From contig NZAS01000210.1 of NCBI GenBank assembly GCA_002686195.1, forward strand, positions 1-26,239: a stretch of 26,239 bases of DNA, read 5' to 3'. The notes under the pieces are model-generated. The model had not been told where the DNA came from. It did no database searches and saw only the letters and a program-made list of their open reading frames with translations. The translations under genes were made by a program, and so were the position numbers. Shown here one piece after another: positions 5,715 to 24,348 of this stretch; the first letter of the stretch is position 1; each line of letters begins with the position of its first letter. The stretch is from Candidatus Pacearchaeota archaeon (GTDB lineage: Archaea > Nanoarchaeota > Nanoarchaeia > Pacearchaeales > GW2011-AR1).

Positions 5715-6362
5715 ATGTTCAATATATCTTTAAAGAAAAGCCAACTTAATCAAGATTTATGGATAATGAAATTGTATGGAGAGCAAAGAAAAGGATTCTT
5801 TGTTGAGGTTGGATCTACTGACGGCACAAATTTAAGTAATACTTATTTGCTTGAGAAAGGATTGGGGTGGAAGGGGATATGTATTGATGCAGATCCTAAT
5901 CAATGGGAAAGTCTACAAAAAGAAAGAGATTGTATTGTTTCTAATGATTGTGTTTGGTCTAAGTCTGGCGAAGAAGTTCCGTACTTAGTCCAATCTTGTT
6001 ACAGCGGTATAGAATCTCACACCGAGAAAAAAAATTATCCAAATGAAGATGGTGTTGTTGACTATACAGAAACTATAAAATTAAAAACTAAGACATTAAA
6101 TGATATATTAAAAGAAAATAATGCACCAGAATTTATTGAATATATTAGTATCGATACAGAAGGTTCCGAATTAGAAGTTCTTAAAGGAATTAATTTTGAA
6201 GGAAAGTACACAATAGGTGCATTTACAATTGAACACAATCACGATGAAAACCGAAAAGAAGAAATTAAAAAATATTTAGAAGATAACGGATATGAAAGGT
6301 TTGCGGAAGTTGGTTGGGAGGATTGGTATTCTTTAAGAACCCTATATAAACACCTATTGTAG
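5715..6362 (+). CDS. FkbM-family SAM-dependent methyltransferase
   Basis: Likely O-methylates a sugar, as FkbM-type enzymes often do in glycan clusters. The 215-aa protein begins with the family's SQ..QDLW segment (9-16, SQLNQDLW). The SAM-binding FFVEVGSTDG follows (28-37), then SNTYLLEKGLGWKGICIDADP (41-61, given in part) and the conserved YISIDTEGSELEVLKGI (143-159). It is the first gene of the glycan island, 3 bases after regA, with only a weak purine ribosome site. A second, more divergent member lies at 17387-17989. The family is clear; the acceptor is unknown. Confidence 0.88.
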   Translation: MFNISLKKSQLNQDLWIMKLYGEQRKGFFVEVGSTDGTNLSNTYLLEKGLGWKGICIDADPNQWESLQKERDCIVSNDCVWSKSGEEVPYLVQSCYSGIESHTEKKNYPNEDGVVDYTETIKLKTKTLNDILKENNAPEFIEYISIDTEGSELEVLKGINFEGKYTIGAFTIEHNHDENRKEEIKKYLEDNGYERFAEVGWEDWYSLRTLYKHLL

Positions 6363-6371
6363 GATTTGATT

Positions 6372-7025
6372 ATGAAAACTTTACTTTTAAGTTTCTATAG
6401 TGATATAGAAGATCGAACATATTACAGTGAACACGCAAAAACTCTTAAAGAGTCTTGCGTTATACACAATATTCCGCATGACATCCAAGAGAAAAAATCT
6501 CTAGGGACTTATCAGGATAATTGCCTTAGTAAACCACAATATATTCTTGACAAGTTGGAAGAACACAATTGTCCTCTTTTATGGGCAGATGTTGATTCCT
6601 TGGTGCATAAATCTTTAGATGTGTTTGATACATTTGAAGACAGTGCTGATGTAGCATTGTCAACATCAAACGGGAAAATTTCTGGGATTAAGGCATCTCC
6701 AATATATTTTAATTGTAACGAAAATTCCAAAAGGTTTTTGAATACATGGATAGGAACAACAAGAAAAATACTAGAGGAAGAAGGAAACCATTTTGATCAT
6801 GAACCTTTATTTGGGATAGTTGCAGGTTATTTGGAAGTAATAAATGTTGGGTTTGTCGGACCAGAATATTGCGTGTGGCCTGGACATACCAACGAAAATA
6901 GTTTCATAACGATGGGACTTGCTGATTCTGAAAACAAAAAAGATAATTTAAGAAAAATGGGATTGTCAGAAGATTTGATTGAGTGGCAATCGCCTGGTGA
7001 TAATTATGAAAACGAAATTCATTAG
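6372..7025 (+). CDS. GT-A-type glycosyltransferase-like protein
   Basis: A 217-aa protein with the look of a nucleotide-diphospho-sugar transferase domain. N-terminal strand MKTLLLSFYSD, a KPQYILDKL helix, then LLWADVDSLV, where DVD (73-75) would be the metal-binding DxD, and a later PIYFNCNENSKRFLNTW. The track-type start at TTG 6366 is less likely than ATG 6372, which has AGGA at 6361-6364. Its layout and DxD position are the same as in the N-terminal half of the next gene, so the two are tandem paralogues. Its end overlaps that gene by 20 bases. Donor and acceptor are unknown. Confidence 0.7.
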   Translation: MKTLLLSFYSDIEDRTYYSEHAKTLKESCVIHNIPHDIQEKKSLGTYQDNCLSKPQYILDKLEEHNCPLLWADVDSLVHKSLDVFDTFEDSADVALSTSNGKISGIKASPIYFNCNENSKRFLNTWIGTTRKILEEEGNHFDHEPLFGIVAGYLEVINVGFVGPEYCVWPGHTNENSFITMGLADSENKKDNLRKMGLSEDLIEWQSPGDNYENEIH

Positions 7026-8442
7026 TTTTTATTGCGACAGAGATGGTGGAGATTACTATTCTTCTTGTGCAAAGAAAATAAAATCTCGTCTTGACGAATT
7101 AGGAGCATCTCACGACATTAGAGAAATCCCGAGTCAAGATCACTACATGCTAAATTGTTTAGAAAAGCCAAAATTCATTCTTGATATGCTGAACGAATTA
7201 GACGAATCCTTAATATGGATTGATATTGATTGCACAATTAATCAATTACCCGAAGAGTTAGATGCAGTAGAAACTGATGTGGGGTTTGCAATAAGAGAAC
7301 ACGATTTAAAAACCCCCCACAGCGCATTGATATTTTTTAACAACACAGAAAAGAGTAAAGAATTCATAAGAGATTGGATTAAAAAATGTGACAGTAAAAA
7401 GAAAGATTCAATTTCAGGAAAATATACTTTGGGAGATCATGAGCAATTAATTCTTGCGGCAAAAGAGAATAAACCACAAGCAGTTTTTACTGTGTTCTCA
7501 CCTTCCCTTTGTGCAGTAGAAACTAATGTTTCTAAAGTAAGTATTGGTTTAAGTTATGGGGAAAACGAATGTAATAAGATACAAGCATTTTATCCACCAT
7601 TCAGTTTGAAGGATGGTTCTTCTTGCGGCAAATTAAAACCAAGATTTTTTAAATGGACAGATAGAGATTGTAAAATACAAGTATTCGTTGATAATGGTAT
7701 GGGTAGTATTCCTTCTCACCCCAGAGAGAAAGGAACATATAGGTTTGGATGGCTATGCGAATCGAAGGAAATCGTTAATCAATTGTATCTTGCATTAAAA
7801 TCCAAACATGAAATTTTCTTTGATCATTTTGATGGTATTTTTACTTGTGATGAAGAATTACTTCAATTAGATTCACGATTTATGTTTGCTTTGTCCGGCA
7901 GCAATCTTCCTTGGACATCAAGAGAGGATTTTGGTGTTCATGAAAAAAATAAGTTGTGTTCACTTCTTGCTTCTCCAAAACAAATGACAAAAGGTCATCA
8001 ATTACGGTATGAATGGGCAGATAAATTAAAAAATGATATAGATGTGTTTGGTGGTGTTTCTGGTTCTTCTAAAATCGGAACTGATGGGTTTGCTTCTGCT
8101 GCACACCCACCAAAAACAGAAGCATTGAGAGATTATATGTTTTCGATTACGATTGAGAACGCATCCTATAATCATTATTTTACAGAAAAAATAACAGACT
8201 GTTTTGCAAATGGAACCATACCTGTTTATTGGGGATGTCCCAACATCGGACAATATTTTAACGAAGATGGAATTATAGTTTTAAATGATTCTTTTGATAT
8301 CAAAGATTTGAATGAGGAATTATACAACAGCAAAATAGATGCAGTAAAAGAGAATTATGAAAAAATAAAAACAATGAAACTTTCTGATGATATTTTGTGG
8401 GAAATGGTTTCTCAGTATATTGATAAGGCTGAAAACAAATGA
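7006..8442 (+). CDS. Two-domain glycosyltransferase: GT-A domain fused to GT10 fucosyltransferase-like domain
   Basis: A 478-aa fusion. Residues 1-190 are a GT-A-like domain paralogous to the preceding gene, with LIWIDIDCTI and DxD at 73-75. Residues about 215-470 resemble GT10 alpha-1,3/4-fucosyltransferases: KLCSLLASPKQM (316-327), then FSITIENASYNHYFTEK (379-395) and GTIPVYWGCPNI (403-414). This is the family's E-N ... Y-x-T-E-K ... G-x-x-P-V-x-x-G motif for GDP-fucose binding. The bifunctional arrangement could add two successive residues. The ATG at 7006 is preferred over the TTG at 6979 because GGTGA lies 6 bases upstream and the N-terminus then matches its paralogue. The stop overlaps the next ATG (ATGA). 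Confidence 0.85.
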   Translation: MKTKFISFYCDRDGGDYYSSCAKKIKSRLDELGASHDIREIPSQDHYMLNCLEKPKFILDMLNELDESLIWIDIDCTINQLPEELDAVETDVGFAIREHDLKTPHSALIFFNNTEKSKEFIRDWIKKCDSKKKDSISGKYTLGDHEQLILAAKENKPQAVFTVFSPSLCAVETNVSKVSIGLSYGENECNKIQAFYPPFSLKDGSSCGKLKPRFFKWTDRDCKIQVFVDNGMGSIPSHPREKGTYRFGWLCESKEIVNQLYLALKSKHEIFFDHFDGIFTCDEELLQLDSRFMFALSGSNLPWTSREDFGVHEKNKLCSLLASPKQMTKGHQLRYEWADKLKNDIDVFGGVSGSSKIGTDGFASAAHPPKTEALRDYMFSITIENASYNHYFTEKITDCFANGTIPVYWGCPNIGQYFNEDGIIVLNDSFDIKDLNEELYNSKIDAVKENYEKIKTMKLSDDILWEMVSQYIDKAENK

Positions 8443-9128
8443 ATGGATTAATATCGTTTAGTTTATATGGGGATGATCCGAGATATACAGAAAACTGTAT
8501 AAAAAATAAACCTCTTGCTGATAGGTACTATCCTGATTGGACTCTTCGGTTTTATCATGATAATACTGTTCCTGCCCACACTTTATCCATTTTAGAAGAT
8601 CAAGGTTGTGAATTAATTGACATGACAGAAAATGATATTCATGGTGTTGTTTGGAGATGTCTAGCAGTTGATGATGAAAATTATGATGCAGTTATTATTC
8701 GTGATGCAGATTCTCGCGTAAATTACAGAGAAGCACAAGCCGTAAAAGAATGGCTTAATAATGAAGAAACATTACATTCAATGCGTGACGCAAAAGAACA
8801 TAATATGCTGTTTCAAACCGGAATGTGGGGATGTAAACCCAAACAGAAGAAATTTTCAATGACAGAATGGTTGAATATTTCTGAACCTCTAAAGAAAAAA
8901 AATTATCAACACATAAGCGGATATACATGGGACGATCAATTGTTTTTGGGTATGTTGCTGGGTAACAAAGAAACTCATATAAATGATGTATTGGCACACG
9001 ATGATTGGTTGAGGCATACTGATAAGCAGAGAACTTTGCCTTTTCCAACCAATCCTAGACCCAGACAGCATGTTGGTTATGCTTTTTTAGATCCGACAGA
9101 AGAAAGTGAAAGGGATTCATCAGAATGA
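8439..9128 (+). CDS. GT-A-type glycosyltransferase-like protein
   Basis: A 229-aa protein with a GT-A-like order of elements: MNGLISFSLYGDD, WTLRFYHDN (35-42), ELIDM (58-62), VIIRDADSR (85-93) with DAD as candidate metal-binding motif, then HSMRDAKEH and GMWGCK. The pattern resembles uncharacterised transferase-like proteins found in phages and environmental bacteria. It starts within the previous stop (ATGA at 8439) and its own stop overlaps the following start in the same way. The exact family and sugar cannot be stated. Confidence 0.65.
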   Translation: MNGLISFSLYGDDPRYTENCIKNKPLADRYYPDWTLRFYHDNTVPAHTLSILEDQGCELIDMTENDIHGVVWRCLAVDDENYDAVIIRDADSRVNYREAQAVKEWLNNEETLHSMRDAKEHNMLFQTGMWGCKPKQKKFSMTEWLNISEPLKKKNYQHISGYTWDDQLFLGMLLGNKETHINDVLAHDDWLRHTDKQRTLPFPTNPRPRQHVGYAFLDPTEESERDSSE

Positions 9129-9889
9129 AAAAGAAATTATATATTTTACACCATTTAGGAATGGGAGATCATATTCATTGTAACGGAATGATAAGATACA
9201 TTAGAGAAACTTTAAATTTAGAATGGACAATTTCAGTATTTTCTTGGGAAAGAAATAGCAATAATGTTGAATATATGTTTCGTGATAACGAGAGTATAGA
9301 AATAATACCTCTTATTGATGATGTTGATGAAATATCTCAAGCGAATAATTATATCCAAAACGACGAACATGTAGAAGATTCTAGACTTTTATTGTTAGGA
9401 TTTAATCATTATTCTCAAATAAAAACAAAACATCCCGAGTATACATGCGATCAGTGTTTTTATGAGCAGATTGATGTTCCTTATAAATATCGTTTCGAAA
9501 AATTTTATTATGAAAGAGAATTCGAAGAAGAAAATAGAGTTTATGAAAAACTTGTTCCAAAAGGAAAAGAATATGTTTTTGTTCACGATAACCCACCAAA
9601 AGGTTATAACATAAACACAAATAAAATTGATTCTAAATATGAAATTGTAAAAAATGATATAAGTGAAAGTATTTTTCATTTTGCTAAGATATTAGAAAAT
9701 GCTTCTGAAATTCATTGTATCGAAAGTGCTTTTAGATGCTTTATTGAAGGATTAGATACTTCAAAAGCAAAGCATTATTTTCATCCAGCAAATACAGAAT
9801 TTGCAAAATTTGATAATAGCAACTTGGGAAGCGGAACTTCTAAGGAGTGGAATTATGTTGAGTATGGACAACCTTCTAATATGCTATAA
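9125..9889 (+). CDS. GT-B-type (GT9/heptosyltransferase-like) protein
   Basis: A 254-aa protein opening with YILHHLGMGDHIHCNGMIRY, close to the LGxGDxxxxxGxxR loop of GT9 heptosyltransferases and related GT-B enzymes. The C-terminal half carries ASEIHCIESAFRCFIEGL, matching the family's late donor-site helix (S/E-S near a Gly). The heptosyltransferase D-x-G-x-x-H motif is not evident, so a different sugar is likely. It starts inside the previous stop and overlaps the next gene by 35 bases. Fold assignment is moderate. Confidence 0.6.
   Translation: MKKKLYILHHLGMGDHIHCNGMIRYIRETLNLEWTISVFSWERNSNNVEYMFRDNESIEIIPLIDDVDEISQANNYIQNDEHVEDSRLLLLGFNHYSQIKTKHPEYTCDQCFYEQIDVPYKYRFEKFYYEREFEEENRVYEKLVPKGKEYVFVHDNPPKGYNINTNKIDSKYEIVKNDISESIFHFAKILENASEIHCIESAFRCFIEGLDTSKAKHYFHPANTEFAKFDNSNLGSGTSKEWNYVEYGQPSNML
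9842..9847 (+). promoter_or_regulatory. Shine-Dalgarno AAGGAG that fixes the start at 9855
   Basis: AAGGAG lies 7 bases before ATG 9855, inside the end of the preceding gene. It favours that ATG over the in-frame ATG at 9801, which has no comparable site and would add 18 residues. Confidence 0.7.
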
Positions 9890-10757
9890 CTCTTTACCTC
9901 TATTTGCAGATCATGTTTTAGATTATCCCCAAGAATATTACAAATTGCATGGCGTAGAAAGATTACACAATCACGAAGGTATTGATCCTTCTCAGATTAA
10001 AGAAAATGATGTAGTGTGTATAAAGACTGATTTTGTGGAGAATGGATATTTTTATAATGAAATATTTCCCGAAATTAAGAACAAGTTTAAACTTGTTACC
10101 ACAATATCTTCTTTACCGGGACCGATAGGGCAAGGAACAGACGAAATTCTTTCAAGTGAAAAATTGATTGCGTGGTATCCGTGTCATGTTAATCCCAAAT
10201 ACGGATATCATGAAAAGGTGTTTCCTGTTCCAATAGGATTTACTGAGCCTAGCAGGCAAAATGGAAATCAACATCTTTTACAAAAATGTAGAGAAGAAAA
10301 AACACAATTCGACGATAAGAAAAATAGTGTACTCTTACCTTATCACAATTTGAAGACTAATAAAATTAGAAGAGATTTAGTGAATTCAATTTTAAAGTCT
10401 GGTATAAAAATAGAAAGGCAGCAAGAGAAATTAGAAATAAAAGATTGCTTGAAGCAAATGGACAGGTACAAATATGTTGTTTGCTTAGAAGGTTCTGGTA
10501 TTGATACACATAGAGCATATGAATGTTTGTTAATGGATTGTGTTCCTATTATGAAGAAAACTCCATTGCATAGAATATTTGATGATTACAATCTTCCCGG
10601 TATTTTTATCGAATCGTGGGACGAAATAGATGAAAATTTTGTTGAAAGTATTGAGGAAAATCAATTCGATTTTTTAGGCATCGATGAATTTCTTCTCGCT
10701 AAGACTCATGGAGAAAGAATAATAAATGAACATAGTTCAAATGTCAGGTCTAGGTAA
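9855..10757 (+). CDS. Exostosin-like GT-B glycosyltransferase
   Basis: A 300-aa protein. The hallmark is the C-terminal EGSGIDTHRAYECLLMDCVP (212-231), the pattern of exostosin-like (GT47-type) and related transferases in which a helix after G-x-D-T-x-R positions the nucleotide sugar. Earlier pieces such as WYPCHVNPKYGYHEKVFPVP (107-126) and PIGFTEPSR fit uncharacterised phage members. No signal peptide or membrane helix is present, so it would act in the cytoplasm. It overlaps genes on both sides (35 and 32 bases). The specific linkage is unknown. Confidence 0.62.
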   Translation: MLSMDNLLICYNSLPLFADHVLDYPQEYYKLHGVERLHNHEGIDPSQIKENDVVCIKTDFVENGYFYNEIFPEIKNKFKLVTTISSLPGPIGQGTDEILSSEKLIAWYPCHVNPKYGYHEKVFPVPIGFTEPSRQNGNQHLLQKCREEKTQFDDKKNSVLLPYHNLKTNKIRRDLVNSILKSGIKIERQQEKLEIKDCLKQMDRYKYVVCLEGSGIDTHRAYECLLMDCVPIMKKTPLHRIFDDYNLPGIFIESWDEIDENFVESIEENQFDFLGIDEFLLAKTHGERIINEHSSNVRSR

Positions 10758-11460
10758 AATGGGAAGATTTGGAAATCAACTTTTTCAATATGCATTTGCC
10801 AAATCGTATGCAAAAAAATATAATTGCAATTTTGAAATACCTTCCGATTGGATAGGAAGAAATATCTTTGAAATAGACGATAGTTCTCTGAGCAGACAAT
10901 TACCAAAAACAGAAATAGATGATATTCCATTTGGTCAGGTAAACATAGATTTGACTGGATATTTTCAGCACCAAAAGTTTTTAGATATCATGAATCCAGA
11001 TGATGTTAGAAAATGGTTTACCTTTAAAAAGCAATGGAGAGATATTTTTAAAAAACCAAAAGATTTTTATGTTGCGGCACATCTCAGACATGGTGATTAT
11101 GTTAATGGAGAAAAATATTGTACTATATCAGAAGAATGCTATATTGAATCTTGTGTAAAGTTTGGGTATGAAAAGGAAGATGTTATTGTTGTTAGTGAAG
11201 AAAAAAGGCAACCAGAAGATTCCGGTAACATGGATTTTTTGTATGATTTTTTTGTCTTAACAGAAGCAGATGTTTTGTTTCGTTCAAACTCAACATTTGG
11301 TTGGTGGGCAGGATTTTTAGGAAATCAAAAGATTGTATATTCACCCGATGTTCAGGGAAAAGCAGGGCAACATATGATTGATGTTGATTTTGTTGAGGGA
11401 AATTATCCTTGTCATATGGAGATAGATAATAGACACAGTGATTTATATTTTGGAGAATGA
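10726..11460 (+). CDS. GT11 fucosyltransferase-like (alpha-1,2 type)
   Basis: A 244-aa GT11-family protein. It has the N-terminal GRFGNQLFQYAFA (13-25), the GDP-fucose site HLRHGDY (119-125, the HxRxGDY motif) and the C-terminal SNSTFGWWAGFLG (187-199). GT11 enzymes transfer fucose from GDP-fucose to galactose-type acceptors in bacterial O-antigens. It is somewhat shorter than typical members (about 280-300 aa) but keeps all three motif blocks. No GDP-fucose synthesis genes are in the window, so the donor must come from the host or another part of the phage genome. It overlaps the previous gene by 32 bases. Confidence 0.9.
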   Translation: MNIVQMSGLGKMGRFGNQLFQYAFAKSYAKKYNCNFEIPSDWIGRNIFEIDDSSLSRQLPKTEIDDIPFGQVNIDLTGYFQHQKFLDIMNPDDVRKWFTFKKQWRDIFKKPKDFYVAAHLRHGDYVNGEKYCTISEECYIESCVKFGYEKEDVIVVSEEKRQPEDSGNMDFLYDFFVLTEADVLFRSNSTFGWWAGFLGNQKIVYSPDVQGKAGQHMIDVDFVEGNYPCHMEIDNRHSDLYFGE

Positions 11461-11463
11461 GAA

Positions 11464-11844
11464 ATGAAAGTGGAAGTATCAAATGGCGAAGTGGTTGACA
11501 AGATAACAATCTTGAAAATAAAACTTGAAAAGATTGATGATCCTGTTAAAATAAAAAATATTAAGAAAGAACATGATATACTTGAACCATTGGTAGAATC
11601 ATTTTCTCCTGCGTTCTCAATTCGTGAAGATATTCAAGATCTTTATGAAACAAATTTACAACTATGGGACATAGAAGATAGTATAAGAGAAAAAGAGAGG
11701 ATTCAAGAATTTGATGATGAGTTTATTTCTCTTGCAAGATCTGTTTATCGTATGAATGATAAAAGAGCAAAGATAAAGAAAGACATAAATGAAAAGACTT
11801 TTTCTCACCTGATAGAGGAAAAGAGTTACCAGAAATGGAATTGA
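11464..11844 (+). CDS. DUF6165-family protein
   Basis: A 126-aa helical protein matching the DUF6165 pattern: VEVSNGEVVDKITILKIKLE (3-22), LWDIEDSIREKER (67-79), VYRMNDKRAKIKKDIN (93-108) and the terminal EEKSY. The family has no established activity that I know of, but its genes are repeatedly found among glycosyltransferase and polysaccharide genes. The very regular charged helices suggest a coiled-coil or assembly factor. It has GGAG about 8 bases upstream and starts 4 bases after the GT11 gene. Confidence 0.78.
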   Translation: MKVEVSNGEVVDKITILKIKLEKIDDPVKIKNIKKEHDILEPLVESFSPAFSIREDIQDLYETNLQLWDIEDSIREKERIQEFDDEFISLARSVYRMNDKRAKIKKDINEKTFSHLIEEKSYQKWN

Positions 11845-11847
11845 ATT

Positions 11848-12630
11848 ATGGCTGATCCTGATTTTGTTAGTAGTGTTTCTAATTTCAAAGATATGATTCA
11901 ACTCTTTAAAGAAAGAGATGTTTTTGGAGATGAATCTTTGAATGTTTTTATTAATCTTTTAAAGGACAAAATCCCATTTGCAATAACAAGAGTAAATGAT
12001 GGAGAAATGAGTTCATTTGTTCGTTCCCAAGGGCAGAGATTTGGAAGAACACAACATACTATAATCACACAAAAATTGATTGATAATCTTACAGAAGTTT
12101 TAAGCCACAGACAACACAATTATTGGACAGGAATTGTGTGTCATGAATGTTTTCCTGATTTGTATCGAATAGCGAAGGATATTGTAGGAGACTATGAACA
12201 TGTAACTAGAGCGGTGGTTTTTACTAACAGAAACTGGGCGAAATTTGTTTCCGAGTTTGGCAATTTGGTTTCAGACAGGAACATAAAATGGATAGGTAGT
12301 GAAGATCAAAATTTAAGTATGCTAGAAAAAATTTATGATATAGAAAAAATACAAACTCCAATAAAACTCCCACAGATTAATGCTTGGGAACTGTATGATA
12401 AACTCAAAGATAAAGTAGATATGTTTGATGAAGGAGATCTGGTTTGTTTAAGTTGTGGTCCAGTTTCTAGAGTTTTAATTAAAGATTGGTTTAAACAAAG
12501 ACCCGATATTACTTTTATGGGAGTAGGTTCAACCTTTGATCCTATGACAAGAAATGTTTGGCACGCTTGTCACAGAGGTTGGTTGAGAACAGGATTTAAT
12601 GAAACCAAAAAATGTTCGGGGTGCAACTGA
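11848..12630 (+). CDS. Putative GT-D-like glycosyltransferase-related protein
   Basis: A 260-aa protein. PFAITRVNDGEMSSF (43-57) resembles the R-x-G-D-G-E motif of the GT-D fold family (DUF1792-type transferases), and CGPVSRVLIKDW (203-214) with FMGVGSTFDP (223-232) could be the second half of the nucleotide-binding site. The C-terminus has CHRGW (241-245) and KKCSGCN with a C-x2-C pair (256-259), which may bind a metal. The family link is from short motifs only. The stop overlaps the next start (TGATG). Confidence 0.5.
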   Translation: MADPDFVSSVSNFKDMIQLFKERDVFGDESLNVFINLLKDKIPFAITRVNDGEMSSFVRSQGQRFGRTQHTIITQKLIDNLTEVLSHRQHNYWTGIVCHECFPDLYRIAKDIVGDYEHVTRAVVFTNRNWAKFVSEFGNLVSDRNIKWIGSEDQNLSMLEKIYDIEKIQTPIKLPQINAWELYDKLKDKVDMFDEGDLVCLSCGPVSRVLIKDWFKQRPDITFMGVGSTFDPMTRNVWHACHRGWLRTGFNETKKCSGCN

Positions 12631-13067
12631 TGAATAGAGAAATAGTAGGGTTCACAGCCGGTAATTTTGATTTATTGCATCCGGGGTATATCTACACCTT
12701 TGAAGAGGCAAAACGGCACTGTGATAAGTTCATTGTTTTTCTTCAAAAGGATCCTTCCACAGGTCGTCACACAAAATATAAGCCAGTCATATCATATTAC
12801 GAAAGGTATAAGGTTCTAATGTCGATCAGATATATTGATGCGGTTTATATGTATCAAACCGAAGAAGAATTATATGATTTGATCAAATTCTTTAAGCCAG
12901 ATATAAGAATCTTGGGCGAAGATTATATCGGCAAATCATTCACTGGCGATGATCTGCCCCCAAAGGTAATTTACACGACTAGATGCCATGAGTGGTCAAC
13001 AACGAAACTCAAAGATCTAATTACTATTCAAACTATTAAACAGAACCCCGGAATCATAGACCAATGA
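12630..13067 (+). CDS. Cytidylyltransferase-like nucleotidyltransferase with HPGY motif
   Basis: A 145-aa protein of the glycerol-3-phosphate cytidylyltransferase/HldE-C superfamily, which activates sugar or polyol phosphates with a nucleotide. Landmarks are AGNFDLLHPGY (10-20), FIVFLQKDPS (34-43), RYIDAVY (67-73), ILGEDYIGK (94-102) and WSTTKLK (122-128). The usual HxGH is HPGY here: the second catalytic His is Tyr. I recall other phage and environmental homologues with H-x-G-Y, so it may be a distinct subfamily, but activity is uncertain. GC is near 40% against about 25-35% for the neighbours. The start at 12630 overlaps the previous stop; an in-frame ATG at 12612 is disfavoured. Confidence 0.8.
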   Translation: MNREIVGFTAGNFDLLHPGYIYTFEEAKRHCDKFIVFLQKDPSTGRHTKYKPVISYYERYKVLMSIRYIDAVYMYQTEEELYDLIKFFKPDIRILGEDYIGKSFTGDDLPPKVIYTTRCHEWSTTKLKDLITIQTIKQNPGIIDQ

Positions 13068-14832: not shown

Positions 14833-15418
14833 AATAATAAATCAATTTGAGGAAATGGTAGCAAAATATACAGGCTCTCCTTTTGCTGTCGCAACAGATA
14901 GTTGCACTAGTTCTTTATTTCTTTCCTGTGTTTATAATGAAGTAGATGAAGTTACAATTCCTTCGAACACATATGTTTCCGTACCAAATTCTATTATACA
15001 TGCAGGAGGGAAAGTCATATTTGAGGATTTGGCATGGAGGGGAATATATCAATTAAAACCATATCCAATTTATGATGCTGCAAAGAGATTGACAAGCAAA
15101 ATGTATATTCCAAAATCTTTCATGTGCCTTTCGTTTCATGCTAAAAAAATATTATCAATAGGAAGAGGTGGTATGATTTTAACAGATGATGAAAAAGCAG
15201 TTGAGTGGTTTAAAAGAGCAAGACATGACGGAAGAACCGAGGGGGTAAAATTAAACGAAGAACAATTTCGATCAATTGGCTGGAATTGTTACATGACACC
15301 AGAACAGGCTGCTAGGGGAATACAATTATTGTCTTTGCACCCAGAGAATAAAGAAGATCTTCCGATAGAAAATTATGGAGATTTGAGCAAGTTTAAATAT
15401 GTATGGGAAAGGAAATAA
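14816..15418 (+). CDS. Minimal DegT/DnrJ/EryC1-type PLP aminotransferase
   Basis: Sugar aminotransferases of this family add an amino group to 4-keto or 3-keto nucleotide sugars. This 200-aa protein keeps the core: FEEMVAKYTGSPFAVATDSC (11-30), the phosphate-binding SCTSSL (29-34), IPSNTYVSVPNSIIHAGGK (48-66), Asp 87 in YDAAKRL, and CLSFHAKKILSIGRGGMILT (104-123) with Lys 111 as the probable Schiff-base lysine. Family members are usually 360-400 aa. Here the stretch between the HAGGK region and Asp 87 is shortened by tens of residues, and the protein stops soon after TPEQAARGIQL (161-171), so the C-terminal small domain is missing. No remnant follows before the next gene at 15422. It may be a compact phage form, a partner-dependent subunit or a decayed gene. 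Confidence 0.8.
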   Translation: MRGGFKIINQFEEMVAKYTGSPFAVATDSCTSSLFLSCVYNEVDEVTIPSNTYVSVPNSIIHAGGKVIFEDLAWRGIYQLKPYPIYDAAKRLTSKMYIPKSFMCLSFHAKKILSIGRGGMILTDDEKAVEWFKRARHDGRTEGVKLNEEQFRSIGWNCYMTPEQAARGIQLLSLHPENKEDLPIENYGDLSKFKYVWERK

Positions 15419-15421
15419 AAA

Positions 15422-17394: not shown

Positions 17395-17989
17395 CATAGG
17401 TTCAAAAGAAAAACAAGACAGATTCGCTTATCTTTTATGTGGAAACCAAGGGGTATTCTTAGATTTAGGTTCTAGAGAGCCTTTTGTAGGAAATAATACA
17501 ATTTTTCTTGAATCTCTTGGGTGGACAGGTTTTTTGTTTGAGATTGAACATGAATTTGTAGAGCAGTCTAAGGAAGAAAGAAAATCTCTTGCTTATTGTG
17601 TTGATGTGACTACGCCTGAATTTATTGAGACTTTAAAAAATGATGCAGGTGTGATCAACTTTGACTATATTTCAGTGGATGTTGATGATAGCGGACTTGA
17701 TGCTCTTTCTAATCTTTTGGAAAATGGTTTTACCTTTAAGTGTATGACATTTGAACACGATTACCATAAAGATGGGGACATAATACGAAAACCCTCAAGA
17801 GAAATATTAGAGAGATATGGTTATGTTATGCTTTTTGAAGATGTAAACAATAATATGAATCATCCAAGCAGTTGGGAAGATTGGTGGATTAATCCTAAAC
17901 AATTTCCAGATGTTTTACTAGATTATAAACTAAGCAATAAACACTATTCCATATGTATAATGAAACTGGAGGAATACAAAAATGATTAA
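17387..17989 (+). CDS. Divergent FkbM-like methyltransferase
   Basis: A 200-aa protein related to the FkbM protein at 5715-6362. It has GVFLDLGSREP (22-32, SAM loop), FLESLGWTGFLFEIE (40-54) and DYISVDVDDSGLDALSNLL (93-111), aligning with that protein's YISIDTEGSELEVLKGI, then TFEHDYHKDGD where the other has TIEHNHDEN. The canonical D-x-E-G is changed to D-V-D-D, so activity or specificity may differ. It starts at GTG 17387 with GGA about 6 bases upstream and overlaps the epimerase by 8 bases. Confidence 0.75.
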   Translation: MINIGSKEKQDRFAYLLCGNQGVFLDLGSREPFVGNNTIFLESLGWTGFLFEIEHEFVEQSKEERKSLAYCVDVTTPEFIETLKNDAGVINFDYISVDVDDSGLDALSNLLENGFTFKCMTFEHDYHKDGDIIRKPSREILERYGYVMLFEDVNNNMNHPSSWEDWWINPKQFPDVLLDYKLSNKHYSICIMKLEEYKND

Positions 17990-18719
17990 GTTACTAACTG
18001 CTGGTGGATTAGGCGATGCGGCTATGTCTCTCGCAAAAATTCACGCAAAACCAGAATTAGTAGGTAATATTAGTGACATAGAAATTACGCATGTTCGGAT
18101 GCGAGATGATTCTTTATACGAAACCATTTCTGAATTTTATTCCTCGCAAGGAATATCAAACAATGTTATTAAATTAGAAATAGATAAAAATCTCCCACAC
18201 GGAAATAGAATTTCCAAAATGATTGAATGGAAAGTAAAGAATAGAAATTCTTTTTTATATTCTCTCGGCACTGGTTGGTATTCTGAAGAAGATCAGGATG
18301 AAGATTGTTGGGAAATAAATCCATTTCCTAATATAAAATATACAAAACGAAAAGATATACAAATAACAATAAATCCATCATCTGGAGGAACCAATGCAGT
18401 TAAGAAAGAATTTACTAATAAGGAAATAAAAAATTTTGTTGAAAAGTATCCAGAATCTATTATAATAGGTAGAGGAAAAAATAAAGAACTGGAGTCTATT
18501 GGCAATTCTTTATACAATAAAACATCAATGAAAGAATTGGTAGATATAATTGCTTCTTCTCAAATTGTTATTAGCCCAGAAGGGTTTGTCGCTTATTTCG
18601 GAGCAATGTGCGGGAAGAAAGTTTTGGTCAAGAATCAAAATTTACCTGCTATTAAGAAAAGAAGACACCCAGATTGGGATTTCTCTCTCATAGATTCAAT
18701 GGATAATATTTCAATATGA
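17982..18719 (+). CDS. GT9-like GT-B glycosyltransferase
   Basis: A 245-aa protein. It starts MIKLLTAGGLGDAAMSLAKI, a GLGD loop as in GT9 transferases, and later has ITINPSSGG at the domain boundary and ASSQIVISPEGFVAYFGAMC near residue 190-210, matching the GT9 pattern of a Ser-rich strand, a glycine and a donor-site helix leading to a G-K-x-V strand. GGAGG lies 9 bases before the ATG, which overlaps the previous stop region by 8 bases. It is shorter than bacterial heptosyltransferases (about 330 aa). Donor sugar unknown. Confidence 0.6.
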   Translation: MIKLLTAGGLGDAAMSLAKIHAKPELVGNISDIEITHVRMRDDSLYETISEFYSSQGISNNVIKLEIDKNLPHGNRISKMIEWKVKNRNSFLYSLGTGWYSEEDQDEDCWEINPFPNIKYTKRKDIQITINPSSGGTNAVKKEFTNKEIKNFVEKYPESIIIGRGKNKELESIGNSLYNKTSMKELVDIIASSQIVISPEGFVAYFGAMCGKKVLVKNQNLPAIKKRRHPDWDFSLIDSMDNISI

Positions 18720-18730
18720 GGTGACGGAGT

Positions 18731-19294
18731 ATGAATACTGAAGAGGTTACATCAAAGAAGTGGATGGATGGAGGTGCATACACACATCAAGAACATGTGT
18801 ATATGTCACATTTGGATAACCATCCCCACATTATGTCTTTGCTACGGAATGGTTTTGTTTTAGAAATCGGTCCCGGAACTGGTAAGTATGCTGAGATGTT
18901 GATTGATAAATTTAATCCACGGCAGTATACCATACTAGATTTAGCAAAAAATATAGGTGATTCTATGAAAAGGCTGTCCGGTCATAAATCAACAGAGTTA
19001 AGTTTTGTACACGCAGAAAATTATGTTGATTTGTTCGGGCTAAACTTTGATGTGTTAGTGTCTAATGTTGTCATCCCCGAAACGCCAAAAAAATATAGGG
19101 AAAATCTTCTTACCAATGTCATACCTAGTTGTAAAGCAAGTATGATCATATGTCAAATAAAAGAAGAGGACAGTGAAGGAAATGAACCAATGGAACTATT
19201 TTTCAGTGAGTTATACAACAAAGTTTATAATAAAGTAATTTTTGAACAGACTAGTTATAGAAATTGCTATTGCATGATTGGATACAATGAATAA
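18731..19294 (+). CDS. Class I SAM-dependent methyltransferase
   Basis: A 187-aa Rossmann methyltransferase. Motif I VLEIGPGTGKYAE is at 43-55, TILDLAKN follows as the acidic strand-2 motif, and FDVLVSNVVIPETP matches motif IV. The size and location suggest a sugar O-methyltransferase that caps or modifies a glycan residue. GAGGTGA at 18718-18724 lies 6 bases before the ATG. It overlaps the formyltransferase start by 8 bases. It belongs to a different methyltransferase group from the two FkbM-like genes. Confidence 0.8.
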   Translation: MNTEEVTSKKWMDGGAYTHQEHVYMSHLDNHPHIMSLLRNGFVLEIGPGTGKYAEMLIDKFNPRQYTILDLAKNIGDSMKRLSGHKSTELSFVHAENYVDLFGLNFDVLVSNVVIPETPKKYRENLLTNVIPSCKASMIICQIKEEDSEGNEPMELFFSELYNKVYNKVIFEQTSYRNCYCMIGYNE

Positions 19295-20144
19295 CTTTGG
19301 ACTTTTCTTAACTGGATATAAGGGTCTTTGTTTTCTACAGCGGATAACATATGTTCCTAGTTTTGTTGTCACTTGTGACAACCAAGAGGGTTCTGATTGT
19401 TATGAAAAAATAATAAATTTCTGCACAGAAAATAACATTAAATGTTATGAACACAAAAAATTCGATGATGTTTTGGATTCAGTGGAAATGGTTTTTGTTG
19501 TTGGATGGCAGTTTTTAATTAAACAAAACTTAGATAAATTTATTGTTTTTCATGATTCGTATCTACCAGAAAGAAAAGGTTTTTGTCCTGTAGTTTCTTC
19601 GTTGCTAGATGAATCTGATTATGTTGGAGCATCTTGCTTTCACCCAACACAAGAACTCGACTCTGGATCTTTACTTTTCAGAAGAAAAAAGAAGATAAAA
19701 TATCCAATAAAAATTAAAGATGCTTTTGATTATGTTGTGGAAATGTATGTTGAAATGTTTTACAATATTATAAATGACAATTCAACAAAACCAATAAGTA
19801 TTGGGGATGATAAATTATCATATACTGTTTGGAGAGATGAAGAAGATTTTAGAATTAATTGGGAAAAAACATCGTCACATATCAAACAAAAAATATATTC
19901 TTTGGGATATCCATATAGAGGATCGACTTCTTTATATGATGGTAATTTAATATACATTCAGGATGCAGAAATTGTTCCAGAATTAAATATTTGTAATAGA
20001 GAAGATCATATTGGTAAAATTTGGGAAGTAGAAGATAATAATCCAATTATTATTTGTGGACAAGGAATGTTGAAAATATTAAAAGCAAACGAGTCAAACG
20101 GTGATGATGTAGTTTTCAATAAAATAAGAAAGAGATTCAAATGA
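19287..20144 (+). CDS. Formyltransferase-family protein, probable sugar N-formyltransferase
   Basis: A 285-aa protein of the Met-tRNA/sugar formyltransferase family, which moves a formyl group from N10-formyl-tetrahydrofolate to an amino group. Evidence is VVGWQFLI (71-78), IVFHDSYLPERKGFCP (86-101), VGASCFHPTQELDSG (113-127) and a DFRINWEKT segment typical of the linker. The catalytic His (89) and Asp (125) are in place. The usual Asn of the N-x-H motif appears to be Val 87, as in the H-D-S-x-L-P subgroup of LPS-linked homologues as I recall them. With rmlB and the aminotransferase in the same block, an amino-sugar substrate is more likely than Met-tRNA. ATG 19287 is preferred to TTG 19278. 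Confidence 0.82.
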   Translation: MNNFGLFLTGYKGLCFLQRITYVPSFVVTCDNQEGSDCYEKIINFCTENNIKCYEHKKFDDVLDSVEMVFVVGWQFLIKQNLDKFIVFHDSYLPERKGFCPVVSSLLDESDYVGASCFHPTQELDSGSLLFRRKKKIKYPIKIKDAFDYVVEMYVEMFYNIINDNSTKPISIGDDKLSYTVWRDEEDFRINWEKTSSHIKQKIYSLGYPYRGSTSLYDGNLIYIQDAEIVPELNICNREDHIGKIWEVEDNNPIIICGQGMLKILKANESNGDDVVFNKIRKRFK

Positions 20145-20842
20145 ATAAGTTGGCAGTGGTAACAAGATCAGATCCTAATATCGATAATATCTCTAAAGAG
20201 ACACATCCACTTTTAGAAGAGTATGCAAAGAAATGTAACGCAGACTTTATAATCTTGAGTGGTGATCCTCCAGTATGGACACATGATCACAGACCTCATT
20301 ATAGAATTATGGAAGGTTATAATTTACTACTAGAAGACTATGATCGTTTGTTGTTTCTAGACAGCGACATGATTGTTTTAAGATCTTGTCCAAATTTATT
20401 CGATATTGTTCCAGAAAATAAAATTGGTTCAATTTATGAAGATAAGGGTTCCAGAAAAGATGATAGACTTTCTAGAATAAAAAAAATACAAAGTCAATGG
20501 GGAGATGTTGGGTGGAGAGAAAAATATACCAATGCTGGAACTTTTTTGGTATCTAAGAAGCATAGAGATATTTTTCTCCCACACGAAGGAAAATATTGGA
20601 TTGATTGGGGATCAGCAGATGTTCATCTATCGTACATGATTCATAAAAATAATTTTGAAGTGCATGAACTACCATTTCATTACAATCATATGACTATGTT
20701 TTCCGAGTCATGGAATGGGAATGCAAATAGATTTGATTCTTATATAATACATTATGGTGGTGCGGGGATTTTTGATCCCGGTATACATAATAGAGAACAG
20801 CAGATTAGACATGATAAACAAAAGTTATTTGAATCTATTTAA
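20141..20842 (+). CDS. GT8-like GT-A glycosyltransferase
   Basis: A 233-aa protein with MNKLAVVTRSDP, HYRIMEGYNLLLEDYDRLLF (53-72), LFLDSDMIVL with DxD at 74-76, and YTNAGTFLVSKKHRD, the N-x-G loop of the fold. The C-terminal HELPFHYNHMT and IIHYGGAGIFDP supply candidate His ligands. This is the standard architecture of GT8-like hexosyltransferases seen in LPS clusters. It begins within the previous stop codon (ATGA). The gap to the next gene is 18 bases. Sugar specificity unknown. Confidence 0.75.
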   Translation: MNKLAVVTRSDPNIDNISKETHPLLEEYAKKCNADFIILSGDPPVWTHDHRPHYRIMEGYNLLLEDYDRLLFLDSDMIVLRSCPNLFDIVPENKIGSIYEDKGSRKDDRLSRIKKIQSQWGDVGWREKYTNAGTFLVSKKHRDIFLPHEGKYWIDWGSADVHLSYMIHKNNFEVHELPFHYNHMTMFSESWNGNANRFDSYIIHYGGAGIFDPGIHNREQQIRHDKQKLFESI

Positions 20843-20860
20843 AATGAATTGAGAATTGTG

Positions 20861-21340
20861 ATGAACTTAAATAAAAAAAAACCAGTTGCATTAATATCCC
20901 CAGTCATAGGCGAATTTGGATTTACTGTTTTTGACATTCAACAACGAGTCAGGGCATTTTTTAGAAAGTATCCAGATCATCATAAGGTTGTTATTGCATA
21001 TCCCTCTCTTCACGAACTTTTTGAATTAGCAGATGAGATGATCGAACCCAATTTATCAATGGATTATTTACCCTGCGGTAGAGGTGCAGATCTTCAATAT
21101 CATAATTCTGATTTCTATAAAATGATACACGAACATAGTTTGACTAAATATGATCCTGATGTTTATTTCAAGATAGAATATGAAAATATGATTGAAAGAG
21201 GAAGTGGACAAGGATACGATTTGCGATATTGCTTAGACGGGACAAAATTAAAAGAGTTAGGATGGGAAACTACAAAAACTCTAGAAGAACTTTTAGAGAA
21301 AACTGTCAATTGGACGATTAAAAACAAGGAATGGATTTAA
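20861..21340 (+). CDS. Chimeric ORF: GT-like N-terminus joined to an RmlB-like C-terminal tail
   Basis: A 159-aa protein made of two unrelated parts. Residues 8-110 (ALISPVIGEFGFTVFDIQQR, HKVVIAYPSLHELFELADEM) are paralogous to the start of the next gene (AVVTPIIGEFGWTLFEVQDK, RKVVIAPHSLHFLFDEATHI). Residues 112-159 (QGYDLRYCLDGTKLKELGWE, TLEELLEKTVNWTIKNKEWI) match the extreme C-terminus of dTDP-glucose 4,6-dehydratases, where D-x-R-Y-x-x-D-x-x-K, E-L-G-W, K-T-V-x-W-Y and N-x-x-W are typical. Neither catalytic site can be complete. It looks like a recombination or deletion scar that retained an open frame, though expression as a regulator or partner is possible. The start at ATG 20861 is chosen over TTG 20849; the ribosome site is weak. 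Confidence 0.7.
   Translation: MNLNKKKPVALISPVIGEFGFTVFDIQQRVRAFFRKYPDHHKVVIAYPSLHELFELADEMIEPNLSMDYLPCGRGADLQYHNSDFYKMIHEHSLTKYDPDVYFKIEYENMIERGSGQGYDLRYCLDGTKLKELGWETTKTLEELLEKTVNWTIKNKEWI
21326..21330 (+). promoter_or_regulatory. Shine-Dalgarno AAGGA that fixes the start at 21340
   Basis: AAGGA directly abuts an in-frame ATG at 21331, too close for that codon, but is 9 bases from ATG 21340, which overlaps the upstream stop (TAATG). Confidence 0.65.
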
Positions 21341-22182
21341 TGAATACTGCTGTGGTAACGCCAATTATAGGAGAGTTTGGGTGGACTTTATTTGAAGTAC
21401 AAGATAAGGTTCGTTGGTTTTTCAAAAACACAACTTGTGAAAGAAAAGTCGTTATTGCACCACACTCATTACATTTTCTTTTTGACGAAGCAACTCATAT
21501 CATAGAATTACCAGACAATATGAAAAATTCCAATTTACCAGAAGCATTGGGAAAACAATGTCAGCACAATTCTATTTCTTATTATGAAAGTTTGATAAAA
21601 TGGACAGCGGAAACATTTAATCCTAAAGAGATATTAACAATTCCTTATAATATACCATGCAGCGAAAGGTGGGATTGGAAATCTGAACACAAAATGTTCA
21701 AATCATCATGCAGAGAATGGGAACCACATATTTGTGTTTCTGCAAGGGATGTTAAAGAAAGAGGCGAAGGAAAGAATTGGAGTCATAATAAATGGGATGC
21801 TTTGATTAAAAAGGTAAAGAAGAGGTGGAATCTCCCAATTATTTCTATTGGATTGCCTGGGGATACATATGTTCCCAAAGAAGCAGAATTTATAGAATGT
21901 GATACTAACGATTATTTAGAAACTGCTGTTAGTTGTATAAATAGTGCAACATTCTTTTTTTCTAGCAATTCAGGAACAACTCACCTATCTCTTCTTTCTG
22001 GATGTCCTACATTTTCTTGGGGAGATAGCGACAATTTAACAAAAAGAATGGAGAACGAAACCAATCCATTCAACATTGAATGTAAATGTTTGAACACGGG
22101 ATGGGATCCTGATGTAAAAACAATTTTTAACGAATTAAAACTTTGGTATGAGGAAAAAATATGCAAGCAACAATTGGTATAA
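21340..22182 (+). CDS. GT-B (GT9-like) glycosyltransferase-like protein
   Basis: A 280-aa protein. The N-terminal half (VTPIIGEFGWTLFEVQDKVRW) carries an IGEFG loop similar in place to the GLGD loop of GT9 enzymes. The C-terminal half has ICVSARDVKERGEGKNWSHN, a K-W-x-x-L-I helix, PIISIGLPGD and FFFSSNSGTTHLSLLSGCPT, which matches the GT9 donor-site signature (S-x-S-G-x-x-H-L-x-x-x-x-G-x-P). The upstream chimeric ORF carries a partial copy of its N-terminal half. It overlaps the dehydrogenase gene by 22 bases. The sugar is unknown. Confidence 0.68.
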   Translation: MNTAVVTPIIGEFGWTLFEVQDKVRWFFKNTTCERKVVIAPHSLHFLFDEATHIIELPDNMKNSNLPEALGKQCQHNSISYYESLIKWTAETFNPKEILTIPYNIPCSERWDWKSEHKMFKSSCREWEPHICVSARDVKERGEGKNWSHNKWDALIKKVKKRWNLPIISIGLPGDTYVPKEAEFIECDTNDYLETAVSCINSATFFFSSNSGTTHLSLLSGCPTFSWGDSDNLTKRMENETNPFNIECKCLNTGWDPDVKTIFNELKLWYEEKICKQQLV

Positions 22183-23003
22183 TAGGTAATGGATTTGTCG
22201 GAAATGCGGTGGCTAAAGGATTACAAGATAAAGTAAGTGAAATCAGAATCTATGATATAGATAAAAATAAATCAACTCATAGTTATCTTGAAACTTTAAT
22301 ATCAGATTATATTTTTGTATGTTTACCCACTCCAATGAAGCACGAAGAAGGAGCAGAATGTAATATTTCTACTATTGAAAATTTCTTTGAAGATATTCCT
22401 AGCACAATTGAAGGGATAATTATTATCAAATCAACTGTTCCTATTGGAACGACTAAGAGATTACAAGATAAGTACCCGCATCTTAATATAATACACAATC
22501 CAGAATTTCTCACTGCTGCAAATGCAGAACAAGATTTTATTGAATCAGATAGGCATGTTGTTGGAGGCGATAACGAGATGCTAGTCGAGCAAGTTGAAAG
22601 ATTTTATAAAGCATGTTTTCCCGAAACTCCGGTATATACCATGAAAACAAAAGAATCAGAAGCAGTTAAATATTTTGCTAATAGTTTTCTTGCCACAAAA
22701 GTTATGGTTTTTAACGAAATGAAAATGTTATGTGATAATATTTCAGATATAAATTATGACAGAATCCTTGAAGGTGTTGCATCGGATAGAAGAATTGGAC
22801 ATAGCCACACATATGTTCCTGGTCCAGATGGTAATTATGGATTTGGGGGAACTTGTTTTCCAAAAGATATAAATGCACTCATACATACTATGGAAGAATA
22901 TGAAATAGATCCTTTAGTTTTGAAAGCCGTGTGGGAACAAAATAAAAATATTAGAAAAGAATGGGATTGGGCAGAAAATATTTCTGCGGTGATGGGTGAA
23001 TAA
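22161..23003 (+). CDS. UDP-glucose/GDP-mannose dehydrogenase, short form
   Basis: These enzymes oxidise a nucleotide hexose twice to the uronic acid. The 280-aa protein has IGIIGNGFVGNAVA for NAD (5-18), FVCLPTP (52-58), STVPIGTT (91-98), NPEFLTAANAEQDF (113-126), EAVKYFANSFLATKV (167-181) and GFGGTCFPKD with catalytic Cys 232 (227-236). Bacterial members are about 390-430 aa; this one ends at residue 280, so the C-terminal nucleotide-binding domain is absent. It may work as a compact phage form or with a partner. AGGAA at 22151-22155 precedes the ATG. UDP-glucose is the more likely substrate but this is not certain. Confidence 0.87.
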   Translation: MQATIGIIGNGFVGNAVAKGLQDKVSEIRIYDIDKNKSTHSYLETLISDYIFVCLPTPMKHEEGAECNISTIENFFEDIPSTIEGIIIIKSTVPIGTTKRLQDKYPHLNIIHNPEFLTAANAEQDFIESDRHVVGGDNEMLVEQVERFYKACFPETPVYTMKTKESEAVKYFANSFLATKVMVFNEMKMLCDNISDINYDRILEGVASDRRIGHSHTYVPGPDGNYGFGGTCFPKDINALIHTMEEYEIDPLVLKAVWEQNKNIRKEWDWAENISAVMGE

Positions 23004-23007
23004 TATA

Positions 23008-24348
23008 ATGATGACAAAAACCAAAAAAGTTAAAAAAGTACCAAAACCAACATCTGTAACTCTTTGTATGATAGTTAAGAACGAATCTCATATTATCAAA
23101 GAATGTTTAGAGTCTATGATTCCTTATATTGATCGTTATGATATTACCGATACTGGTTCGACGGACGGAACACCAGAACTTATAAAAGAATTTATGGACG
23201 AATATGGTGTTCCGGGTGAAGTTTATCTTTCTGATTGGAAGGGGTTTGGTGATAGTGCCAAAAATATTGGTTCTCGAACCGAAGCATTAAATAATGCAAA
23301 AGAAAAAGCAGATTATGCGTGGATGATTGATGCAGATGACTTCATGACTGGTAATTTTGAATATCCGTCAGAAATGAAAGAAGATGCATATAGCATTAGG
23401 TTGGGCAGAGAAGATTTTGTTTGGTGGAGAAATCAAATTTTTCGATTAGAATCGAATTGGCATTATGTTGGTATTCTTCATGAATATGCAGCATGTGAAA
23501 AAGAAAATCCTATTGTTGGAAGAATGGGCGGAGAATATAAAGTAACTGCAAGAACTTTGGGTGCTAGAAATGTAGGAATTTCAACGCAAGAAAAATATAA
23601 AAGAGATGCAGAAGAGTTAGAGGACGCACTCTATAATGAAAATTCTCCAAATTATGATCCTAATAATTCAAGATATGTATTTTATCTCGCACAAAGTTAT
23701 TTTGATTCTCAACAATATGAAAAATCATTAGAATCATATGGAAAGCGTGCAGAAATGGGTGGTTGGGAAGAAGAAGTTTATTATTCTTTATATCGTGTTG
23801 CAATGATAACTGCTGTTTTAGATAAACCGTGGGAAGAAATACAACAGGCATTTCTTGATGCGTATGATTCTAGGCCAATTCGTGCAGAACCTTTATATCA
23901 AATAGCAAGATTATACCGTCAGGTTCACAATAAACCAAGATTGGGATACATTTTTGCTAAAATGGCTATGGAAATTCAATATCCTCAACAAGACATTTTG
24001 TTTATCAGCGATGAAGTTTATAAATATCAATTATTGGATGAGATTGGTGCAACAGCATGGGCTGCCGGAAAGCCCCATGTCGGATATGCAGCATGTAAAA
24101 GATTGATTGAAGAAAATCTTGTTCCCGATAATGAACGGGAAAGAATATCCAACAATTTGAAGCAATATGAACAATTACTTTCACAAATGCATTCTGAGCA
24201 AGCACAAAATCATGTTGCTCAAAGAATGGCAGAAAAGACGGCACAAGAAAAAGAAAAGAAGAAAAATAAAGAAAAAAGAAAAAATAGAACAAAAGGAAGC
24301 ACAAAAACATCATCTCCTAAAAACAGAAAGAAGCGAAAGAATAAATAA
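23008..24348 (+). CDS. GT2-family glycosyltransferase with TPR-like C-terminal region
   Basis: A 446-aa protein. GT2 motifs are TLCMIVKNESHIIKECLESM (18-37), DITDTGSTDGT (45-55) and YAWMIDADDFM with the DxD-like DADD (108-111). Residues about 200-380 are helical repeats of TPR style (RYVFYLAQSYFDSQQYEKSL, PLYQIARLYRQ), a combination known in many bacterial and phage GT2 proteins. The last about 35 residues are a Lys-rich low-complexity tail (EKEKKKNKEKRKNRTKGS). No membrane helix. GTG 22996 is also in frame, but ATG 23008 (or 23011) is better spaced from GGTG. It is the last glycan gene before the virion genes. Confidence 0.85.
   Translation: MMTKTKKVKKVPKPTSVTLCMIVKNESHIIKECLESMIPYIDRYDITDTGSTDGTPELIKEFMDEYGVPGEVYLSDWKGFGDSAKNIGSRTEALNNAKEKADYAWMIDADDFMTGNFEYPSEMKEDAYSIRLGREDFVWWRNQIFRLESNWHYVGILHEYAACEKENPIVGRMGGEYKVTARTLGARNVGISTQEKYKRDAEELEDALYNENSPNYDPNNSRYVFYLAQSYFDSQQYEKSLESYGKRAEMGGWEEEVYYSLYRVAMITAVLDKPWEEIQQAFLDAYDSRPIRAEPLYQIARLYRQVHNKPRLGYIFAKMAMEIQYPQQDILFISDEVYKYQLLDEIGATAWAAGKPHVGYAACKRLIEENLVPDNERERISNNLKQYEQLLSQMHSEQAQNHVAQRMAEKTAQEKEKKKNKEKRKNRTKGSTKTSSPKNRKKRKNK

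Follow-up and report, generated by a model that had tools for sequence, protein, structure and literature searches.

What is a T4-like phage doing with 24 glycan-type open reading frames (ORFs) directly behind its regA gene? The question arises from the stretch analysed here (the window), a 26,239-base virus record from IMG/VR that represents a fragment of a phage genome, in which regA is followed on the same strand by these ORFs and then by two virion-type genes (positions 5298-26238). We found that the glycan locus is a fixed hotspot with anchored edges and exchangeable cargo, common to many relatives of this phage, and that its last gene, here called Y, is of protein-glycosyltransferase type and is linked to collagen-like genes in phages and bacteria. 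The best reading, to which we give a probability of about 0.55, is that the glycans are made in the cytoplasm for the phage's own collagen-like fibres.

The site between regA and gene 43

Pfam and PHROGs matches bear out the first-pass annotation of this DNA, which had recognised the T4 order 46-45-44-62-regA; gp46 is present as its C-terminal part only, at the contig edge, and three small ORFs lie between it and gp45. A strand-consistent block of more than 20 genes behind regA and the lack of a DNA polymerase had also been claimed, and we agree on both counts: the 24 ORFs (5715-24348) share one strand at spacings of -89 to +11 nucleotides (nt), and the 26,239 bases contain no PolB match. Gene 43 is absent from the window because the record is a fragment, and the idea of a phage without gene 43 was rejected since relatives carry the gene downstream. 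Promoter and terminator scans gave nothing above chance.

Gene order was read in 50 of the best 80 of 381 viral loci by similarity to Y, picked for long contigs, and thus holds for Y-bearing contigs. The regA gene was found in 41 of the 50, always upstream of Y and on its strand, at a distance of 5.4-22.4 kb (median 12.9); PolB (gene 43) was found in 26, always downstream and again on the strand of Y, 3.0-20.7 kb away. The 9 contigs without regA have 5.0-11.1 kb upstream of Y and the 24 without PolB have 0.2-9.5 kb downstream, too short for either gene to be always expected. On contig G005, regA ends at 4035 and gene 43 begins on the same strand at 29906, about 26 kb further on; the corresponding gap is 0.22 kb in the pelagiphage HTVC008M, 0.56 kb in phiM12 and 6.8 kb in P-SSM4. 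The proposal of a glycan block between regA and 43 is supported, and gene 43 lies downstream at this site, and not elsewhere, in all the relatives that have it. Among 80 RegA relatives, 12 share at least 70% identity (L001-L011, L015), and 11 of these have a GT10 gene and/or a gene of the type found at 6366 in the window behind regA, while L008 ends right after regA. The limits first set for the island, 5715-24348, were too narrow, as the unit reaches past 24348 into the fibre genes.

How variable is the cargo? We compared 27 complete regA-Y intervals, comprising the window, six relatives and 20 of the 41 Y-locus contigs with regA (none of the 20 over 20 kb). They are 5.1-19.1 kb long and hold 419 ORFs, 417 of them in sense, which fall into 180 protein families, 118 of them singletons (30% identity, 60% coverage, ORFs of at least 90 amino acids). 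Just three families occur in half or more of the islands, GT10 (23/27), the 6366 type (22/27) and an SDR type (16/27), and 11 of the 23 cassette proteins of the window belong to families that are absent from the other 26. When the representatives of 119 of the 180 families were scanned against Pfam, the commonest matches were FkbM (7 of 119) and other methyltransferases, GT2 (6) and GT11 (4), followed by DegT, epimerases and cytidylyltransferases with 3 each and sugar dehydrogenases with 2. Such hypervariable content rejects the possibility that the island consists of fixed core genes.

In five contigs (G044, G045, G047, G051 and G056) the PolB matches are spread over two separate open frames, one of about 505-524 and the other of about 374-388 amino acids, with 1.7-6.7 kb between them, and gene 43 looks, from these frames, to be split in part of this phage group.

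Y and its collagen-like neighbours

The domain order of Y is GT-A (PF00535) followed by helical repeats in the predicted structure (predicted local distance difference test, pLDDT, 90.9), and its profile matches TPR chains. Its fold is nearest to the protein glycosyltransferases SunS and ThuS, with which it shares the combination of glycosyltransferase and helical domains, and its glycosyltransferase domain also matches GmaR in sequence; on the predicted model, Y belongs to a protein-glycosyltransferase fold group. SunS and ThuS are peptide S-glycosyltransferases that act on bacteriocin peptides, and GmaR acts on flagellin. Nine records of a 'phages' collection match Y, the best at 34% identity, and HTVC008M and Mosig are not among them. 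The C-terminus of Y (24160-24348) forms a long helix whose tail is rich in lysine; since the alignment stops at or before residue 392 in 64 of 80 bacterial homologues, this tail may be phage-specific.

Downstream of Y lie Z, a small gene without a match in the 'phages' collection whose G005 copy also matches phrog_3304 ('L-shaped tail fiber protein assembly'), and the collagen-like fibre gene, which starts 127 nt after Z and 597 nt past Y and encodes 56 G-x-y triplets at residues 127-294. A collagen-like gene is among the next two genes after Y in 31 of 44 phage loci and within 3 kb in 36, figures for which upstream genes are a weak control, cassette genes being far from fibres by construction. 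Bacterial homologues of Y, from several phyla, likewise lie near collagen-like genes, far above a background that was estimated from 50 of the 80 bacterial loci with rounded genome sizes and by Pfam, the observed counts being made by regular expression. Six of the 80 loci are from Mycolicibacterium, where the five matches are for the most part rich in glycine and not collagen-like; when these six loci are left out, 44 of 74 have a collagen-like gene nearby, 36 within 2.67 kb of the Y homologue, 7 up to 5.33 kb and 1 beyond.

There is a characterised counterpart to this arrangement in Clostridioides difficile SgtA, which is encoded beside the collagen-like bclA3 and O-glycosylates collagen repeats in vitro (PMC7157674). 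SgtA, too, is a GT-A and TPR enzyme whose gene is directly upstream of a collagen-like gene. Unlike the spore protein BclA3, the candidate acceptor in the window is a phage tail fibre accompanied by a 5-19 kb exchangeable glycan cassette, it has no Thr-rich repeat, and Z intervenes between it and Y.

A distant homologue of Y in Tunturiibacter phage Tunturi_5 (L192:7995-9098) has a gene annotated as a nucleotidyltransferase next to it and a tail-fibre gene about 3.7 kb away on the opposite strand.

Fibre or host surface?

If the glycans are destined for the fibres, the exchangeable cytoplasmic enzymes (4,6-dehydratase, aminotransferase, formyltransferase, epimerase, dehydrogenase and methyltransferases) would make activated and modified sugars, and Y, at the fibre-side edge, would put the first sugar on a virion fibre protein, most likely the nearby collagen-like fibre. 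The other glycosyltransferases would extend that first sugar into a chain, and the outcome would be a strain-specific sugar coat displayed on the phage fibres. The acceptor, linkage, sugar and benefit in this scheme are what we infer.

Could the island instead remodel the surface of the infected host (O-chain or capsule), for receptor masking or superinfection exclusion? The first-pass annotation had offered both roles; neither is proven, and the own-fibre role is the better supported of the two because Y is of the GT-A and TPR type tied to collagen-like genes and because export proteins are missing. By a crude count of hydrophobic segments, 0 of the 23 cassette proteins of the window have two or more, and a marginal N-terminal stretch in the epimerase is the sole one among them. 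Across the 27 cassettes, 408 of 417 proteins have no segment, 8 have one and 1 has two, and the 585 proteins encoded upstream of Y in 56 loci comprise 576 without a segment, 7 with one and 2 with two; the same test finds 6 segments in Wzy and 9 in Wzx of K-12. There is, then, no clear multi-pass flippase or polymerase of the Wzx/Wzy or gtr type in the cassettes by this test. The gtr serotype conversion systems, which resemble the island in being phage-encoded glycosyltransferases, carry membrane proteins, and in this the cassettes differ from them. By itself the cassette would probably not export a lipid-linked glycan; its soluble transferases could, however, extend lipid-linked intermediates of the host, which would then export the product, and by this route host-surface remodelling is the main rival, which we consider the less likely of the two.

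A number of other observations also weigh against the fibre as the target. Full-length SunS and ThuS superpose on Y at a root-mean-square deviation of 13-14 Å, and therefore differ from it in domain arrangement, and Y scores 22.6 bits against a cut-off of 350 in the SunS equivalog model (TIGR04195). In 8 of the 44 phage loci the 3 kb around Y contain no collagen-like ORF; in G001 a stretch of more than 13 kb separates Y from Z and a weak fibre match, both of them downstream, and no fibre match was found within the G004 contig. The collagen repeat of the window is rich in Gln, Lys and Glu with 1 Thr among its 56 G-x-y third (Y) positions, so a Thr acceptor of the BclA type is nearly absent from it. 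Thr occupies at least 20% of these positions in 52 of 92 collagen-like ORFs of Y loci (not dereplicated), a feature that bacterial collagens have in any case. A Thr-rich collagen as the general explanation fails in the window, and acceptors outside the repeat, in a Ser/Thr-bearing linker before it or in the C-terminal domain, are guesses.

The genes on either side of Y can be exchanged separately. Close relatives that share Y and the gene after it have different upstream neighbours in three groups (L156 versus L149 and copies; L157/L161; L167/L178), and in a fourth (L168/L182), of which only the upstream side is present in both, the upstream neighbour changes as well; three groups, one with an open end, keep Y and its upstream neighbour and swap the gene after Y (L159 versus L142/L147/L148/L151/L155; L170/L177; L185/L188), so that Y always travelling with its fibre is not supported. 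We read Y as a hinge between cassette and fibre, which is no proof of the fibre as its substrate. Furthermore, in contig G015 (locus L089, found via the epimerase) regA (to 9896) and 43 (from 23460) are separated by 13.5 kb of ORFs, and this island (9897-23459, in regA orientation) has several ORFs matching the GT10, dehydrogenase, DegT and SDR proteins of the window, without Y and without a match to the collagen-like fibre; the site can therefore carry a glycan island without the Y-fibre unit. Is the site then a general hotspot for auxiliary sugar genes that are unconnected with each other and act on various targets (the virion, the host surface or small molecules), of which Y and the fibre are mere edge neighbours? 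The G015 island speaks for this, as do the families that occur once (118 of 180) and the separate exchange of cassette and fibre around a retained Y, yet Y homologues are repeatedly coupled to collagen-like genes across several bacterial phyla, and we think it improbable. We attach very little probability to modification of the phage DNA, in the manner of the T4 glucosyltransferases: the replication context is of T4 type and phage glycosyltransferases acting on DNA are reported (PMC12619734), but no modified-base pathway gene was recognised in Pfam and PHROG scans of the window genes, and Y falls in a protein-glycosyltransferase fold group.

Viruses that supply enzymes for glycosylating their own structural proteins are not without precedent. 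Chloroviruses glycosylate their own virion proteins. For mimivirus L230 the target is a collagen-like protein of the virus (PMC9614988), and mycobacteriophage virion glycosylation is cited in PMC12619734; these systems are like our proposal in role and have other hosts. No hydroxylase family was matched in the window. A further phage comparison is the host recognition cluster of pelagimyophages, a hypervariable T4-like island mixing glycosyltransferases and fibre genes that is read as modifying the host O-chain (PMC7029224); it lies between VrlC and gp14, whereas the present island is at regA-43. In moraphages the putative glycosyltransferases form four core groups, for which more than one role is considered possible (PMC12619734). 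Compared with these, the present locus differs in its place, its recurrent protein-glycosyltransferase type and its collagen coupling, and no phage fibre-glycosylation locus of this kind was found in the portions of the literature covered, which left out most subscription journals (PMC7029224, PMC12619734, PMC10202952, PMC8968730, PMC9614988, PMC7591256).

What would fibre glycosylation mean? For pelagimyophage glycosyltransferases, so far read as host-surface modifiers, it is a direct and testable alternative, given that the locus keeps its place, that Y is coupled to collagen-like genes in both phages and bacteria, and that export proteins are lacking. We tentatively propose, with somewhat less than even confidence, that a T4-like group without an isolate in the collection searched has a dedicated fibre-glycosylation system in which a conserved Y of SgtA/SunS fold sits between a swappable cassette and swappable collagen-like fibres, fibre and sugar coat varying independently and the identity of the glycan being a second factor, itself recombining, that determines adsorption or evasion of host recognition. 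If so, swappable glycan cassettes are an unrecognised source of variation in phage adsorption, and the GT-A and TPR family may glycosylate collagen-like proteins in many bacteria. The phage group is known solely from environmental DNA and its host is not settled: gp44 resembles its pelagiphage and cyanophage counterparts to nearly the same degree (57.6% for Mosig, 57.9% for DSL-LC03), and a cyanophage host was set aside, as PF00124 (psbA/psbD type) had no match in 17 incomplete relative contigs, four of them over 117 kb.

Individual genes of the island

Features of the window and the evidence for each; ORFs are named by their start.
Feature	Position	Strand	Evidence
gp45-gp44-gp62-regA, T4-type replication cluster, left anchor of island	3229..5711	+	Pfam matches; order kept in relatives
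FkbM-type methyltransferase	5715..6362	+	PF05050 E 2e-16
Edge glycosyltransferase-like family (DxD), usually near regA	6366..7025	+	no Pfam match
Fusion of 6366-type and GT10 domains	6979..8442	+	PF00852 E 3e-10
Three ORFs without assigned type (8439, 9125, 9801)	8439..10757	+	no Pfam or NCBIfam match
GT11-type transferase	10726..11460	+	PF01531, phrog_2644
DUF6165 protein	11464..11844	+	PF19662 E 8e-13; family in 5/26 other islands
GT-D fold transferase	11848..12630	+	PF08759 E 2e-6
Nucleotidyltransferase	12612..13067	+	PF01467, phrog_7878; GNFDLLHPG motif
Nucleoside diphosphate (NDP)-glucose 4,6-dehydratase	13064..13978	+	dTDP-glucose 4,6-dehydratase structures, best E 1.5e-66; TDEVYG and YxxxK motifs
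Weakly supported glycosyltransferase	13975..14832	+	Pfam matches under cut-off
Half-size DegT sugar aminotransferase, 205 amino acids	14801..15418	+	PF01041; DAA and SFHAK motifs kept
ORF without assigned type, 326 amino acids	15422..16402	+	no Pfam, PHROG or NCBIfam match
NDP-sugar epimerase (SDR)	16399..17394	+	PF01370 E 9e-46; motifs intact
FkbM-like ORF (17387) and ORF without assigned type (17982)	17387..18719	+	no Pfam, PHROG or NCBIfam match for either
S-adenosylmethionine (SAM) methyltransferase	18731..19294	+	PF13649 E 8e-6, slightly under cut-off
Formyltransferase-like protein	19278..20144	+	PF02911 E 5e-11; PDB formyltransferases
GT8 transferase	20141..20842	+	PF01501 E 2e-5
Two ORFs without assigned type (20849, 21331)	20849..22182	+	no Pfam match; short phrog_540 match in 20849
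Compact UDP-glucose/GDP-mannose dehydrogenase (UGD), 280 amino acids	22161..23003	+	PF00984, PF03721; GFGGTCFPKD motif
Y, GT-A and TPR, protein-glycosyltransferase type, last island gene, right anchor	22996..24348	+	
Z, small virion-type gene	24369..24818	+	phrog_1084; 20 nt after Y
Collagen-like tail-fibre protein, candidate acceptor	24946..26238	+	PF01391 E 8e-29; PHROG tail fibres

Fifteen of the 24 island ORFs have a Pfam match at E≤1e-3 (FkbM, GT10, GT11, DUF6165, GT-D, nucleotidyltransferase, two SDRs, DegT, methyltransferase, formyltransferase, GT8, UGD, GT2 and one weak glycosyltransferase) and nine have none, and NCBIfam has no match for nine ORFs. Since two of the 15 (13975, 18731) are under the Pfam cut-off, DUF6165 is a domain without known function and nine ORFs are unmatched, the dozen or more transferases of the first-pass annotation are plausible but not fully shown. 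As to its three methyltransferases, one is firm and one is at the cut-off, and the FkbM likeness of the third (17387) rests on comparison by eye.

The DxD of the 6366-type family is invariant in 7 aligned members, and the two halves of the fusion at 6979-8442 are separate neighbouring genes in relatives. The families of 8439, 9125 and 9801 are present in 11, 5 and 3 of the 26 other islands, respectively. The 4,6-dehydratase (TDEVYG, YxxxK), the epimerase and the dehydrogenase (GFGGTCFPKD) have undamaged motifs, and the aminotransferase keeps those of the pyridoxal phosphate (PLP) type. The presence of a dehydratase alongside an aminotransferase and a formyltransferase hints at an N-formylated dideoxy-amino sugar as the product. 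The half-size DegT retains PLP-type motifs and is missing an internal stretch and its C-terminal part; its best 120 homologues are 168-218 amino acids long, in a search admitting only 0.55-1.75 times the query length, and from its sequence it looks like a real compact family. The formyltransferase-like protein has Val where methionyl-tRNA formyltransferase 4iqf has Asn, a catalytic residue. In the compact dehydrogenase Pfam finds the NAD-binding and central domains only, the catalytic Cys motif being retained; L089 has a 53% identical stretch, as well as a 68% identical copy of the epimerase near gp43.

Two of the ORFs between gp46 and gp45 deserve mention. The protein at 1209-1919 matches phrog_30607, of function not known, and may be another glycosyltransferase-like gene product. 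That at 2284-2997 is rich in Cys and Gly, has a C-terminal sequence (GDVWFDTSSG...WVEL) similar to that with which the collagen-like fibre ends, and is matched upstream of gp45 in G001, G002, G005 and G007.

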